DNA of 55,841 bases from Clostridia bacterium (GTDB taxonomy: Bacteria > Bacillota > Clostridia > Oscillospirales > Acutalibacteraceae), in the NCBI GenBank assembly GCA_017441385.1, contig JAFRXY010000062.1, positions 1 to 55,841 of the forward strand, written 5' to 3'. The notes under the pieces are model-generated. The model was not told the origin of the DNA and did no database searches. It saw nothing but the letters and a program-made list of their open reading frames with translations. Each line of letters opens with the position of its first letter. Positions within the stretch are counted from its first letter, which is position 1. Shown piece after piece: positions 8,832 through 15,199 of the stretch. The position numbers and the translations under genes were made by a program.

Positions 8832-10592
8832 ATGCAGATCTTGCTGTCGCAGGAATTTATCAACGAAGTCAAGGACAGAAATGACATTACCGATGTAATA
8901 AGCGGGTATGTCACATTAAAAAGAAGCGGACGCAATTCCAAGGGACTGTGTCCTTTTCATTCGGAAAAAACGCCCTCCTTCACGGTGTTCGGCGACACGG
9001 CGTCATTCTACTGTTTCGGATGTCAGGCGGGAGGGGACGTCATCGGATTTATCAGAAGAATTGAGAATCTTGATTATGTCGAGGCGGTGAAGTTCCTAGC
9101 CAACCGCGCCGGACTGGCGGTTCCCGAAGAAGGCCGGAATGACGGCCTTTCACACATGCGCAACCGGATCCGTGAACAGAACCGCGAAGCAGGAAGGTTC
9201 TTTTACCGGTCGCTCTATTCTCCCGCGGGAAGGCATGCGCTGGACTATTTTCATTCCCGCGGCCTGACCGATGAAACCATCCGGCATTTCGGGCTGGGGT
9301 GGTCTCCCGATGGCTGGGATCAGCTGGCGCGTCATCTGGAGGAACTGGGGTTCAGACGTGACGAAATTCTGGCGGCGGATCTGGGTTATACATCGCGGAA
9401 GGGCGGAATCATCGACAGGTTCCGCAACAGGGTGATGTTCCCGATCATAGACTTGCAGGGCAATGTTCTGGCGTTCGGCGGAAGGAGATTTACCGACGAC
9501 GCGGTGGGGGGAAAGTATGTCAATACCAGTGATACGCTGATCTACAAGAAGACAAATCATCTCTTTGCCATGAATCTTGCCAAAAACAGCAAGTCGCGGG
9601 AGCTTATCCTTTGCGAAGGGTATATGGACGTGATCGCCCTGCATCAGGCGGGATTCACCAATGCCGTCGCGGCGCTGGGCACCGCCGTCACCCCTCAGCA
9701 GGCGCGTGTCCTTCACAAGTACGCCGACAGAGTGGTGCTCTCACAGGACGGCGATGAAGCCGGACAGAAATCAATTGCCCGTTCCATACCCATCATGAAG
9801 GAGGAAGGGCTTGATGTGCGGGTGCTCCAGATTGCCGGCGCAAAGGATCCCGATGAATTCATCAGGAAATACGGCCCCGAACGCTTCAAGTCACTTCTGG
9901 AAGGATGCTCGAACGATATAGAATACAGCATTTTGCGCATTGAATCCAAATACGACATTTCGACCGATGACGGCAGGCTGCATTATTTACAGGAAGTCTG
10001 CGGCTATCTCAGTGAACTGGGGTCTCTGGAACGCGAGGTGTATGCCTCAAGAATCGCGGACAAGCTGCACATAGAAAAATCCGCCGTCATCAGCCAGTCG
10101 GAAGCCTCCGCCCGCCGCAGAGCCAAAATGGAGAAGGAAAAGGAATTTCGCGAAATGGCAAAAAATACCGCGGGCATAGGAAGCAGAATCAATCCGGATC
10201 GCAGTCTGCATCTGCGGGCTTCCAATGCCGAATACTCGCTGCTTTCCATACTTTTTCTGCATCAGGATCTGATAGCAAAAGCGATGACCCGCCTTCCTCC
10301 CGAGGAATTTGTCACAGAATTCGGAAGGAGGATTTATCAGCAGTTCATCGAGATTCATTCTTCCGGTCAGGAAGTCAGCATGTCACTGCTGAGCACGCAG
10401 TTCAGCGAGGAGGAATCCGCCGAGATTGTCCGCGTCATCAATTCCTACGACACTGTGGGAACCAATGATTTTGACACTCTCATCGGAATTATCAAGAGCG
10501 AGCATTTCACGCCTAAACCGCAGGACGCGGCCAAGCTGTCGGCGGACGAGCTTCTTGAGCAGATGAACCGGCTCAAGAAAAAGAAAAACTGA
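8832..10592 (+). CDS. dnaG: DNA primase
   Basis: Synthesises RNA primers for the replisome. 586 aa, normal for a bacterial DnaG. The N-terminal CHC2 zinc finger is present (CPFH at 40-43 with CFGC at 61-64). The Toprim catalytic core follows around residues 255-340: ELILCEGYMDVIAL with the catalytic Glu, then LSQDGDEAG. The C-terminal 130 residues form the helicase-binding domain (EYSLLSILFLHQ). ATG 8832 sits only 3 nt after GGGAGG, a short spacing, but the N-terminus aligns with the family; a TTG at 8841 is the alternative. It lies 21 bp after dgt and 87 bp before the first sigma gene. Confidence 0.97.
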   Translation: MQILLSQEFINEVKDRNDITDVISGYVTLKRSGRNSKGLCPFHSEKTPSFTVFGDTASFYCFGCQAGGDVIGFIRRIENLDYVEAVKFLANRAGLAVPEEGRNDGLSHMRNRIREQNREAGRFFYRSLYSPAGRHALDYFHSRGLTDETIRHFGLGWSPDGWDQLARHLEELGFRRDEILAADLGYTSRKGGIIDRFRNRVMFPIIDLQGNVLAFGGRRFTDDAVGGKYVNTSDTLIYKKTNHLFAMNLAKNSKSRELILCEGYMDVIALHQAGFTNAVAALGTAVTPQQARVLHKYADRVVLSQDGDEAGQKSIARSIPIMKEEGLDVRVLQIAGAKDPDEFIRKYGPERFKSLLEGCSNDIEYSILRIESKYDISTDDGRLHYLQEVCGYLSELGSLEREVYASRIADKLHIEKSAVISQSEASARRRAKMEKEKEFREMAKNTAGIGSRINPDRSLHLRASNAEYSLLSILFLHQDLIAKAMTRLPPEEFVTEFGRRIYQQFIEIHSSGQEVSMSLLSTQFSEEESAEIVRVINSYDTVGTNDFDTLIGIIKSEHFTPKPQDAAKLSADELLEQMNRLKKKKN

Positions 10593-10679
10593 TGGTTCAG
10601 GCTGAAGAATTCCATCATTATATCAATAACGGAAGTTAAATATGCAAATTCCCAAAGCAACGAAAGGTTGATTAAACAC

Positions 10680-11783
10680 ATGGCAGCAACAAACGCAAAG
10701 TCTATTCTAAAGGAACTTGCCGAAAAAGCCAAGGCTAACGGCAGCATTTCTCATCAGGAGATTATGGACGCTCTGGCGGACGTCGACGTTAATCCCGAAA
10801 CCATCGAGAGCTTTTATTTGAAGCTGGAAAGCATGGAAATCGAGATTATTGAAAACGACGAGGAAAGTCTTTCCATTGAATCGCTTGAAATCAACGAAGA
10901 TGAAGACGATGAAGAAAGAGGAAGCAGTTACTATAATGATGCCGAAGCAATGGGCGTTTATGTTGAGGATCCCGTCAAGGCTTATTTACGGGATATCGGA
11001 AAAATCAGGCTTCTCTCCAACGATGAAGAAAAGGAGCTTGCCGCAAAAATCATGGCGGGCGACAAGGAGGCAAAGAAAAGGCTCAGCGAGGCAAATCTCA
11101 GGCTGGTGGTAAGCATTGCCAAGAAATATATGAACCGCGGTCTGCAATTTCTTGATCTGATACAGGAGGGAAATCTGGGACTCATCAAGGCGGTGGAGAA
11201 ATTTGACCCCAGCAAAGGGTTTAAATTTTCCACATATGCCACGTGGTGGATACGTCAGGCCATTACAAGGGCCATCGCTGATCAGGCAAGGACAATACGC
11301 ATACCTGTTCACATGGTGGAAACAATAAATAAAGTGAAACGCGCCAAGGCACAGCTCACCGCTGAGAATGAGAAAGAGCCGCGTCCTGAGGAAATTGCAC
11401 GGCTGCTTGGCATGGATCCCGAAAAGGTGCGTGAAATCATCCGCATTTCACAGGAACCCGTTTCGCTCGAAACTCCTATCGGCGAAGAGGAGGACAGCCA
11501 TCTCGGTGACTTTATCAAGGACGAGGATCAGGCGGCGCCGGAAGACGCTGTGGGCAATATGATTCTGCACGACCTGATTTCAGAGGTGCTCGACACCCTT
11601 ACCGAGCGGGAAGCGGAGGTGATCCGTCTGAGATACGGTCTGGAAGACGGCAGATGTCATACACTTGAGGAAGTCGGAAAACAGTTCGATGTGACCAGAG
11701 AGAGAATCAGACAGATAGAGGTAAAGGCAATTCGCAAGCTGAGACATGTTACACGCAGCAGCAAGCTCAAAGGCTTTACATAA
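10680..11783 (+). CDS. Primary-type sigma-70 factor, copy 1 of 3
   Basis: A 367-aa RpoD/SigA-family sigma factor. It has a region 1.1-like N-terminus ([20 protein letters not shown]), an acidic linker (about 55-80), then region 1.2 [11 protein letters not shown], region 2 ([37 protein letters not shown]), region 2.4 ([18 protein letters not shown]), region 3, and the region 4.2 helix-turn-helix ([19 protein letters not shown]). The C-terminus ends KLKGFT, unlike the canonical KLKDFL. ATG at 10680 follows GAAAGG with 12-nt spacing; an in-frame TTG at 10668 abuts the RBS and is rejected. Its region 3-4 half is nearly the same as that of copy 2, while its N-terminus differs from both others. Confidence 0.95.
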
Positions 11784-11817
11784 TATCTTTTTGTGTTATT
11801 GAGGGAGGGATCGTATT

Positions 11818-12873
11818 TTGAGTACGTCAGAAAAAAAAGAAACACTTCGTAAGCTCGTTGAATCGGGAAAAGCCAAAGGAAGTCTCAGCAACAGAGAAAT
11901 TATCGACACCCTTGCCGACGTCAATATCAGTGCCGAGCAGCTCGAAAAGCTCTATGACAAGCTGGAGGCAAACGGCATTGAAATCGTTGAGGATTCACTG
12001 GAAGACGTAATGGACGATATTTCCGCCGACCCCGGAAGTGATGAAGTGCTGGTCGATGATTCGGTCAAAATGTATCTCAGGGAAATAGGCAGCATTGAAA
12101 TGCTTACCCCCGAAGAAGAAAAGGACATTGCCCGCAGAATAACAGAAGGGGATGACAGCGCCAAGAAGCGCCTGAGCGACGCCAATCTGAGACTTGTCGT
12201 CAGCATAGCGAAAAGGTATATGAATCGCGGACTTCCGTTCCTTGATCTGATACAGGAAGGCAATCTCGGTCTGATCAAAGCCGTGGAAAAATTCGACCCG
12301 ACAAAGGGATTCCGCTTTTCCACCTACGCGACATGGTGGATCAGGCAGTCGATTACCCGCGCTATCGCGGATCAGTCGAGAACCATACGTATTCCCGTTC
12401 ACATGGTGGAAAATATAAACAAGGTCAAGCGTGCCAAGGCTCAGCTTCTCGCCGAAAATGAGAAAGAGCCGCGCCCTGAGGACATTGCCGACCTGCTTGG
12501 AATGGACGAGGCAAAGGTGCGGGAGATTATTCGCATTTCTCAGGAGCCGGTTTCTCTTGAAACCCCCATCGGCGAGGAAGAAGACAGCCATCTCGGTGAT
12601 TTTATCAAGGACGATGAACAGAAAGCGCCGGAGGATGTGGTAAGCAACATGATGCTGCACGACCTGATTTCCGAGGTGCTGGAAACCCTGAGCGACAGGG
12701 AGGCGGAGGTAATCCGCCTGCGATACGGCCTGGTTGACGGCAGGTGCCATACGCTGGAAGAAGTCGGTCTGAGATTTGATGTGACACGTGAACGCATCCG
12801 GCAGATAGAAGCAAAGGCGCTGAGAAAGCTCAGGCAGTTTACAAGAAGAAACAAGCTGAACGGATATACATAA
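11818..12873 (+). CDS. Primary-type sigma-70 factor, copy 2 of 3
   Basis: 351 aa with a TTG start 10 nt after GGGAGGG. All sigma regions 1.2-4.2 are present. The protein looks mosaic by eye. Its first ~105 residues track copy 3 ([53 protein letters not shown]). From region 2.2 on it tracks copy 1 ([58 protein letters not shown]). This suggests recombination or gene conversion between tandem copies. Odd points are [10 protein letters not shown] in region 2.4 and the C-terminus RRNKLNGYT. It lies 34 bp after copy 1 with no promoter or terminator seen between them. Confidence 0.94.
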
Positions 12874-12921
12874 TCGGAATGTATCTTTTCGCGACGATAC
12901 ACGGTATAGGAGGGAGTAGCT

Positions 12922-13992
12922 TTGCATCCGACAGATAAAAAGGGAACGCTGCGAAAACTTGTCGAAACGGGCAGGGAAAAGGGCAGCCTGAGCAATCAGG
13001 AAATTCTCGACGCTCTTTCCGAAATCAATTTCAGTCCCGAGCAGCTGGAAAAGCTCTATGAAAAGCTGGAGGCAAACGGAATCGAAATAGTAGAAGACAG
13101 CTTAGAAGATGAAAATATGGAAGAACTGGCGTCAGAGGAGGAGGCTTACTCTTATGACAACAGTATCATTGACGATCCCGTAAAGATGTATCTGAGAGAA
13201 ATCGGCAGTATTCCGATGCTTACTGCCGAGGAGGAACATGATATTGCCCGCCGGATCGCGGAAGGGGACGAGAGTGCCAAAAAACGGCTCAGTGAAGCTA
13301 ATCTCCGGCTGGTTGTGAGTATTGCCAAGAGATATATCGGCAGAGGAATGCCATTGCTTGATTTGATTCAGGAGGGAAATCTCGGCCTGATCAAGGCTGT
13401 GGACAAGTTCGACCCTTCCAAGGGATTTAAATTTTCCACTTATGCAACATGGTGGATACGTCAGGCGGTTTCACGGGCTATCGCAGATCAGGCCAGGACG
13501 ATCAGAATTCCGGTGCATATGGTGGAGAATATCAATCGGGTGAAGAAGGCGCAGGCGCATCTGCTGAATGAATACGGAAAGGATCCCACCAACGCGGAGG
13601 TTGCTCAGTACGCCGGTATTCCGGAAGAAAAGGTTGTGGAAATCCTGCGTGTTTCGCAGGATATCGTTTCTCTTGAAGCCCCGATCGGAGATGAAGGGGA
13701 GAGTCACTTCGGAGATACCATAAAAGACGATACCCAAGAGGATCCGGAAGATGCCGCTTCCAGCAGCATGCTCAAGGAGCAGCTGAACAAAGCTCTCTAC
13801 ACGCTTACGCCACGCGAGATGGCTGTTCTTAAACTGCGTTACGGTCTTGAAGACGGGAAGAATCACACTCTTGAACAGGTAGGCGCGGAATTCAACGTCA
13901 CCCGTGAACGTATCCGTCAGATCGAGACAAAGGCACTCCGCAAACTGAGACACCCCAGCCGCAGTAAGAAACTGAAGGATTTTCTTCCGTGA
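12922..13992 (+). CDS. rpoD: Primary-type sigma-70 factor, copy 3 of 3 (most canonical C-terminus)
   Basis: 356 aa, TTG start after GGAGGGAG. Region 1.1 ([17 protein letters not shown]) resembles copy 2. Region 2 reads [20 protein letters not shown] and region 2.4 [18 protein letters not shown]. Region 4 ([35 protein letters not shown]) ends in [11 protein letters not shown], the usual end of Firmicute SigA. By that C-terminus this copy is the best candidate for the ancestral housekeeping sigma, with copies 1 and 2 as derived duplicates. The -35 and -10 reading segments of all three are so alike that they probably bind overlapping promoter sets. A new promoter starts at 14033 directly after it. 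Confidence 0.95.
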
Positions 13993-14032: not shown

Positions 14033-14061
14033 TTGACAATTCAATAAATTTATTTTATTAT
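14033..14061 (+). promoter_or_regulatory. Promoter of the repeat-rich membrane protein gene
   Basis: TTGACA (14033-14038), 17-nt spacer, TATTAT (14056-14061), about 65 nt before the RBS GAAGGGA. It starts 40 bp after the third sigma gene. Confidence 0.8.
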
Positions 14062-14135: not shown

Positions 14136-15104
14136 ATGGAAAACAATCCGAAGCCAGAAAATAACCAAATACCTTCGCTCAACACCATTCCTGATCTTCC
14201 TACGGTTGATCTGCCGAATCTGAACAACATCCAGCCTGCCCAGCCGGCACAGGCCGCTCAGCCGGCACAGGCCGCTCAGCCGATTCAGCCCGCTCAGGCA
14301 ATTCCGCAGACGCAGACTTACGGTTATCCTGTGAATAATGTTCCTTATATGCAGGCTGCCGTCCCTCAGGCTCTGACCGTTAAAAAGCGTTCCGCAGGCC
14401 GTATTGTGGCGCTTGTTTTCGGTATTATACTTATTGTCATCAATGTCCTGCTGGAATTGTTGCTTTTCATCGGAGATGCCGCCAACGGTTTTTCGGATCC
14501 TTCCACTATGGCCGTAGGATATATTTTCTTTGGCTTCTTCCTGCTGATCGGCATATTGCTGACCGTTTTCGGATCACGGAAAAGTACCCAGACGGTTTAT
14601 GCCGGTATTCAGCAGCCCTATTATGGAACTCCCGTACAGACAGCACAGCCCTATACCACAACGCCGGTACAGACCGCCGCTCCGGTACAGACCGCTGCTC
14701 CGGTACAGACCGCTGCTCCGGTACAGACCGCTGCTCCGGTACAGACTGCAAATCCTGCACAGCCTCAGGCGACCCCTGCCACAAATACAGCGGCTTTCAA
14801 TTATACGCCTACTTCTACAGTGATAGGGGAAGACTTGGAAACACTAGGAAGAAAGTCTGCCAATAAAACCGCCATGGCAGCCATCGGCATTGTCATACTT
14901 ATGTGGGTGATTTTCTTATTTGTCATATTCTTCTTGAATCGATTGGTATTGATGGCATGGTGGTTCTATATCGTTCCCATCTTCTTCTCCGGAGCGGCCA
15001 TCAAAACCTGCTCTAAATCCAAGCTGGCGTGGGTTTCTTTGATCATTTCAATCGTATCAATTGTCTTGTACTTTGCTGTTACGATCTTTTTAGCCACCTT
15101 GTAA
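14136..15104 (+). CDS. Membrane protein with two Pro/Gln/Ala repeat tracts
   Basis: A 322-aa protein of unknown function. Residues 30-60 carry QPAQAAQPAQ-type repeats. Two membrane segments follow (about 87-112 and 125-147). A second low-complexity tract holds about five copies of PVQTAA (about 175-210). Three or four further membrane segments lie near 245-267, 268-288 and 298-320. The overall shape is a soluble repeat arm, a membrane pair, a second arm and a C-terminal membrane cluster. The Pro-rich arms could be binding platforms or spacers, but no domain is recognised. It has its own strong promoter and RBS, separate from the sigma operon. Confidence 0.75.
   Translation: MENNPKPENNQIPSLNTIPDLPTVDLPNLNNIQPAQPAQAAQPAQAAQPIQPAQAIPQTQTYGYPVNNVPYMQAAVPQALTVKKRSAGRIVALVFGIILIVINVLLELLLFIGDAANGFSDPSTMAVGYIFFGFFLLIGILLTVFGSRKSTQTVYAGIQQPYYGTPVQTAQPYTTTPVQTAAPVQTAAPVQTAAPVQTAAPVQTANPAQPQATPATNTAAFNYTPTSTVIGEDLETLGRKSANKTAMAAIGIVILMWVIFLFVIFFLNRLVLMAWWFYIVPIFFSGAAIKTCSKSKLAWVSLIISIVSIVLYFAVTIFLATL
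14231..14300 (+). repeat. Coding tandem repeat (first Pro/Ala/Gln tract)
   Basis: Copies of an 18-bp unit built on CAGCCGGCACAGGCCGCT, two near-perfect plus degenerate flanks, encode QPAQAA. It is in frame, so slippage would change arm length without breaking the gene. Confidence 0.7.
14664..14750 (+). repeat. Coding tandem repeat, 18 bp x about 5
   Basis: The unit CCGGTACAGACCGCTGCT is repeated almost perfectly (one early copy has GCCGCT; the last is partial) and encodes PVQTAA. The near-identity at DNA level suggests recent expansion. Confidence 0.9.
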
Positions 15105-15170: not shown

Positions 15171-15199
15171 TTGACAAAACAAGTGATTGATGATATAAT
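15171..15199 (+). promoter_or_regulatory. Consensus promoter of the ThrH-like phosphatase gene
   Basis: A perfect TTGACA (15171-15176), a 17-nt spacer and a perfect TATAAT (15194-15199). The in-frame TTG at 15171 is therefore the -35 box, not a start codon, which decides the ATG at 15237. Confidence 0.9.

Follow-up and report, generated by a model that had tools for sequence, protein, structure and literature searches.

Three tandem primary-type sigma factor genes behind dnaG in a gut Clostridia bacterium, with an apparently mosaic middle copy

The genome of a gut Clostridia bacterium carries three intact RpoD/SigA-type sigma factor genes, arranged head to tail 3' of dnaG within the 55,841-nucleotide stretch of DNA that we analyzed (hereafter, the window). 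Our data show that this array is real and conserved and is not an artefact, that all three copies are under strong purifying selection, and, with good support from sequence comparison, that the middle copy appears to be a mosaic of its two neighbors. Textbook accounts give bacteria a single housekeeping sigma factor; in the genus to which the window belongs, by contrast, two or three primary-type sigmas are retained under strong selection. An initial annotation of the window had described three complete tandem primary-type genes behind dnaG, with gaps of 34 bp (copies 1 and 2) and 48 bp (copies 2 and 3), and the coordinates and ORFs were confirmed; the mosaic structure goes beyond what it had observed. 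The features of the array are as follows.

8832..10592, forward strand: dnaG, DNA primase, directly upstream of the array (TIGR01391, 408 bits against a cut-off of 283.6)
10661..10672, forward strand: leader of copy 1, CGAAAGGTTGAT, a weak Shine-Dalgarno sequence that differs from the leaders of copies 2 and 3
10680..11783, forward strand: copy 1 (c1), RpoD/SigA-type sigma factor with a KLKGFT tail, ATG start, 367 amino acids
11801..11810, forward strand: leader of copy 2, GAGGGAGGGA, a strong Shine-Dalgarno sequence resembling that of copy 3
11818..12873, forward strand: copy 2 (c2), apparently mosaic RpoD-type sigma factor with a KLNGYT tail, TTG start, 351 amino acids
11818..12216, forward strand: c2 residues 1-133 (regions 1.1 and 1.2 and the start of region 2), grouping with copy 3 by tree and maximum chi-square
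12220..12870, forward strand: c2 residues 135-351 (the rest of region 2 and regions 3 and 4), grouping with copy 1 in the careful tree
12908..12916, forward strand: leader of copy 3, AGGAGGGAG, a strong Shine-Dalgarno sequence
12922..13992, forward strand: copy 3 (c3), RpoD-type sigma factor with the canonical KLKDFL tail, TTG start, 356 amino acids
13471..13473, forward strand: c3 codon 184, encoding Ser where E. coli has Thr440 (region 2.4), by alignment
13669..13731, forward strand: c3 sigma finger (region 3.2), 21 residues, altered relative to c1, by alignment
14033..14061, forward strand: promoter-like TTGACA-17-TATTAT 3' of the array, a consensus match only; the next ORF begins at 14136

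Each copy passed the Pfam cut-offs for sigma-70 regions 1.1, 1.2, 2, 3, and 4, in agreement with the initial statement that regions 1.2, 2, 3, and 4 are kept in all of them, and each exceeded the cut-off of 354 bits of the NCBIfam model RpoD_Cterm (TIGR02393), with 385.4, 370.5, and 369.5 bits for c1, c2, and c3, respectively. The full-length RpoD model PRK09210, which was scored on the window's three copies only, was missed at 524.8, 493.3, and 511.8 bits (cut-off, 572). Region 1.1 (PF03979) scored 52.6, 51.2, and 56.0 bits against 22.5, which places the copies outside Group 2. The Group 2 sigmas (RpoS, the cyanobacterial SigB-E, and the Streptomyces Hrd factors) are likewise non-housekeeping paralogues near the primary sigma, whereas they lack region 1.1 according to an excerpt of PMC4598750; the origin of RpoS is, to judge from part of that article, the topic of PMC7527412. 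Collectively, these comparisons support a designation of the three genes as full-length, primary-type (Group 1-like) sigma genes, none of which looks inactive. The source genome (2.66 Mb in 110 contigs) has 17 matches to sigma-70 region 2, which presumably include SigE/F/G/K-like proteins, and three Spo0A_C matches. A second core enzyme was ruled out, since the genome has one rpoC match only. It also has one 6S RNA (G000:C42:38918-39120; 64.6 bits), whose presence alongside three primary-type sigmas raises the question of which holoenzyme it binds. Codon bias was tried as a proxy for expression and was dropped, as it did not separate the three copies when referenced to a 339-codon tuf fragment with or without rpoB and rpoC.

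Related genomes were searched for adjacent rpoD-like genes at dnaG, a check that the initial annotation had proposed. Two or three copies were found in 17 of the 18 genomes of the genus (E<=1e-60), in every one of the 17 located 3' of dnaG, and the one genome with none (G008) is 78% complete. The middle gene occurs in ten of them (G000, G004, G005, G006, G007, G009, G010, G012, G015, and G016), while seven have the outer two genes only (G001, G002, G003, G011, G013, G014, and G017). Given that 17 of 18 genomes hold two or three copies, the array is not the assembly duplication that the annotation had named as a possible refutation. Indeed, such a duplication was also ruled out by the presence of the array in named records of different projects (L048-L054, three with three copies and four with two), which are the same contigs as G010, G007, G015, G011, G014, G001, and G002.

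Outside the genus, the counts are lower bounds, since scoring was limited to 7 to 10 candidates per genome. At least 14 of 200 genomes sampled from the family had two or more matches (E<=1e-90), 12 of them in tandem, comprising three of the window's genus together with G053, G061, G103, G106, G116, G123, G179, G210, and G211; in two others (G136 and G213), the copies lie on separate contigs. Among 293 genomes sampled from the class, at least 12 had two or more matches, the window included. Of the 11 others, seven, from three other families, have two rpoD genes side by side (G292, G314, and G337; G327, G382, and G491; G336), and four have copies that are distant or on separate contigs (G419, G453, G464, and G487). 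In the phylum sample of 249 genomes (E<=1e-90), for which the best eight candidates at most were scored per genome, so that extra copies are perhaps undercounted, and matches were counted irrespective of their adjacency, 235 had exactly one match, 6 had none, at least 7 had two, and three were found only in the window's genome, in keeping with the initial claim that one primary sigma gene is usual in the phylum. dnaG was present at 40 of the 41 loci examined, single-copy and duplicated, and at the exception (L055) the contig begins 32 bases before the first sigma frame.

The annotation had also allowed that two of the copies might be inactive and under relaxed selection in close relatives, with dN/dS per copy as a check. 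Where computable (14 genus pairs shown), dN/dS was 0.004-0.042 for c1, 0.007-0.025 for c2, and 0.019-0.060 for c3; dS was high, ranging from 0.66 to more than 2 in the pairs for which it could be computed. Of eight pairs of single-copy rpoD, five gave 0.007-0.029, one was without amino-acid change, and two had a dS that was not computable. The low values and the intact frames rule out pseudogenes. It is also very improbable that the extra copies are degenerating duplicates on their way to being lost, without a lasting role. Such a course could be read from G003, which has no middle gene though it is nested among three-gene genomes, and from the truncated middle gene of G012, but the dN/dS of c2 and c3 is far below 1 and close to that of single-copy rpoD, there are no internal stops among the 44 genus matches listed, and c1 and c3 are retained in all 17 array genomes.

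Constraint is not equal among the copies. The dN of c3 exceeded that of c1 in 119 of 136 genome pairs (being at or below it in 17) and that of c2 in 34 of 36, where the pairs share genomes and hence are not independent; the median dN ratio was 1.44 for c3/c1 (136 pairs) and 2.27 for c3/c2 (36 pairs). Relative to dnaG, the median dN was 0.38, 0.30, and 0.51 for c1, c2, and c3, respectively, and between the window and G016 the dN itself was 0.018, 0.015, and 0.097.

Several lines of evidence support a mosaic origin of c2, with its N-terminal ~130 residues grouping with c3 and the rest with c1. Informative sites in the window are 9 c1-like and 40 c3-like before residue ~134 and 56 and 8, respectively, after it (maximum chi-square, 54.3; 0 of 2,000 permutations as high), and the same switch was found in the six other genomes tested, with breaks between residues 110 and 135. 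These alignments omit the middle genes of G012, L055, and L090, which are too divergent. In careful half-gene trees (8 of 15 c1, 8 of 15 c3, 7 c2, 9 of 22 single-copy, and 7 of 8 sister-lineage rows, with long-branched single copies and the L174 back copy dropped beforehand), the C-terminal part unites c1 and c2 (support 100/100, starred) and rejects c2 with c3 (p-AU 0.0046), which, together with polarized sites, makes the C-terminal kinship with c1 firm: against single-copy RpoDs, residues 205-351 hold 20 sites shared by c1 and c2 and 1 shared by c2 and c3. The N-terminal part unites c2 and c3 (100/98, starred), and the c1+c2 alternative is not formally rejected (p-AU 0.073). In quick half-gene trees, none of the alternatives tested was rejected for either part, and the N-terminal tree constrained to c1+c2 had a higher likelihood (p-AU 0.556). 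The N-terminal kinship with c3 thus draws on raw sequence similarity together with the careful tree and the leader. Polarized sites in residues 1-204 are 7 for c2/c3 and 4 for c1/c2 (5 to 4 and 4 to 3 under other settings), and 1 to 2 in residues 1-80 alone. Since they are mixed up to residue 204, the true boundary may lie anywhere in residues ~115-205, or there may be several conversion tracts.

The leaders add to this picture. The 12-base c1 leader is identical in 14 of the 16 genus genomes with a leader shown and differs by a single base in G002 and G012 (G014, where another start was picked, is not counted), while GGAGGGA occurs in 8 of 9 c2 leaders, 16 of 17 c3 leaders, and 0 of 16 c1 leaders of the genus. 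The order 1-(3N/1C)-3 and the c3-like leader of c2 are as unequal crossing-over predicts; duplication followed by gene conversion would leave the same pattern. A scan of the gaps and flanks for sigma-70 consensus promoters and terminators found nothing conserved between copies, and the three genes probably form one transcript, as the annotation had assumed.

With regard to the age of the array, the dnaG tree places the ten middle-gene genomes and G003 in one clade (98, starred), which is most simply explained by the middle gene having been gained once and then lost in G003. The sister lineage (L056, L057, L172, and L174; 99, starred) has dnaG and two rpoD genes, whose tails are KLKGYS in four of four front copies, like the c1 KLKGFT, and -DFL in four of four back copies, like c3. 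Shared derived sites number 6 for c1 and front, 4 for c3 and back, 3 for c1 and back, and 1 for c3 and front; 7 more are common to c1 and c3 only, which suggests that conversion took place within the genus or that a duplication occurred later. A careful tree (8 c1, 8 c3, 10 of 22 single-copy, and 7 of 8 sister-lineage rows, with the same rows dropped beforehand) groups c1 with the front copy (96/97, starred) and, weakly, c3 with the back copy (77/46); constraining c1+c3 costs 14.9 log units (p-AU 0.0503) and front+back 15.3 (p-AU 0.0462). From this tree, the c1/c3 pair seems older than the genus, but a quick tree with more rows does not bear this out, as both constraints scored a higher likelihood there than the free search. 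Among other members of the family, eight sets of duplicates (L077; L176; L173; L126; L055/L090; L092/L097/L114; L104/L175; L070/L083) each cluster with starred support in a quick tree, a pattern suggestive of duplication on several separate occasions, the number being rough since that tree has long branches and conversion could mimic the grouping.

The annotation had called the region 2.4 and 4.2 helices nearly the same. In region 4.2, a 10-residue stretch is identical in c1, c2, and c3; in region 2.4, any two window copies differ at two to four residues. The single-copy dnaG-rpoD locus of Clostridia has the same place behind dnaG and the same domain layout, yet one gene. Among 106 distinct RpoDs from loci that showed one copy (on contigs of which some are short, so that a second copy may escape), all have Thr at position 440 and 102 carry the TIHL finger pattern. 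In the genus, c1 (15 of 15) and c2 (7 of 7) have Thr at this position, and c3 has Ser (15 of 15). The region 2.4 and finger of c1 are canonical, and the c3 finger is altered in this species and G016. According to the part of PMC2613000 that deals with these residues, Thr440 and Gln437 face position -12, and T440I suppresses a -12 mutation; Ser440 in c3 may therefore alter -12 reading, with Thr to Ser being a mild change. The annotation's suggestion of specialization through partner binding rather than promoter sequence thus fits the shared region 4.2 and does not fit c3, whose region 2.4 is changed at a -12-contacting residue. That the three genes are interchangeable and only raise the sigma level or buffer dnaG-operon expression is unlikely: the identical region 4.2 stretch, the operon-like layout, and the constraint on all copies agree with a dosage role, but the copies are just 58-69% identical (c1-c2, 68-69%; c2-c3, 66%; c1-c3, 58%) and copy-specific residues are fixed genus-wide, a divergence that counts against dosage because dosage would favor homogenization.

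Taken as a whole, we favor, with moderate confidence, an old c1/c3 duplication followed by a hybrid c2, with c1 as the housekeeping factor and c3 as a specialized one; here we infer the order of events, the division of labor, co-transcription, the promoter effects, and the functions of the copies by comparing sequences. The primary sigma gene behind dnaG would first have been duplicated in tandem, yielding a front c1 and a back c3. Within one branch of the genus, c1/c3 recombination would subsequently have inserted a hybrid c2 with the c3 N-terminus and the c1 C-terminal half, most simply through unequal crossing-over between c3 and the c1 of a sister chromosome. All three would be working primary-type sigmas with the core polymerase and -35 recognition in common. 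The changed -12 contact and sigma finger would make c3 a specialized paralogue with different opening and escape at the same promoters, and c2 would join the gating N-terminal regions of c3 (1.1 and 1.2) to the promoter-reading and initiation regions of c1. This apparent domain swap, if made by recombination, would let the contributions of regions 1.1/1.2 and 3/4 be asked about in the cell.

The assignment of c1 as the most likely housekeeping sigma departs from the initial annotation, which had proposed c3. We consider it a minority possibility, though one with substance, that c3 is the housekeeping factor and that c1 and c2 are specialized, having changed in a burst and then been frozen by selection. 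The observation behind the proposal stands, in that c3 has the canonical KLKDFL end and keeps 192 of the 222 residues fixed in single-copy RpoDs, compared with 183 for c1 and 180 for c2; the altered tail and fewer family-fixed residues of c1 argue for c3 as the ancestral-type factor, and the c1 stem branch is the longer one (0.83 versus 0.56). However, c3 is the fastest evolving copy in the genus, has an altered finger in this species and G016, and carries a Ser440 that occurs in 0 of the 106 single-copy RpoDs, which makes c1 the better candidate.

The changes in c3 recur elsewhere in the family. Among 47 distinct copies from duplicated family loci outside the genus, 42 have Thr and 5 have Ser, all 5 being back copies from three lineages (L057 and L152; L097 and L114; L190), and the A-P-V finger changes are found in most genus c3 rows, L092/L097/L114, and L190, a pattern noticed post hoc. 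An S-P-V finger form was seen in three f16 genomes. The 42 copies with Thr, together with 23 distinct copies that come from duplicated loci of the class outside the family (22 Thr, 1 Gly, and 0 Ser), speak against a general rule of Ser in back copies. Tandem duplication in other genera, in some with the same -12 and finger changes, points to a repeated functional need in gut Clostridia. More speculatively, and rather doubtfully, the arrays might act as recombination workshops in which halves are exchanged and hybrids fixed, with back copies converging on a Ser440/A-P-V form; if so, this would amount to a second, parallel primary holoenzyme with the same -35 recognition and altered -12 reading and promoter escape.

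Clostridioides difficile already provides a known example of a second primary-type sigma among the Clostridia; according to Table 1 of PMC7438776, its sigA1 acts in exponential growth and its sigA2 in stationary phase. As described in that part of the article, SigA1 and SigA2 are also two primary-type (Group 1) sigmas in one Clostridia genome, with separate gene numbers (CD1455 and CD1498) and a SigH promoter for sigA2; by description, the tandem two or three genes behind dnaG with a mosaic middle set the window's genus apart. Among the titles and abstract openings listed in a literature search, there was no report of tandem rpoD in Clostridia; as far as our searches show, what is new is the triple in tandem, its mosaic middle gene, and the recurrence of such arrays.

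Some further observations concern other middle genes and the flank of the array. The middle gene of G012 (L165:6298-7086; ~262 residues) is copy-3-like by eye and spans regions 1.1 to 2/3.0, but it lacks region 4 and its region 2.4 is changed; it might be either a decaying duplicate or a decoy. Outside the genus, L055 and L090 also have three tandem sigma genes, with a very divergent middle one (L055:1208-2260 and L090:4712-5947) that has lost the region 2.3 tryptophans. In L104, L175, L055, L090, and L187, the C-terminal tail of the first copy is shortened and that of the last copy is the usual one. 3' of the array, the window encodes at 14136-15101 a Pro/Ala/Gln-repeat protein with hydrophobic stretches by eye, which has tblastn matches in the fetched stretches of 5 of the 16 other genus genomes, and a perfect TTGACA-17-TATAAT lies downstream of it at 15171-15199.
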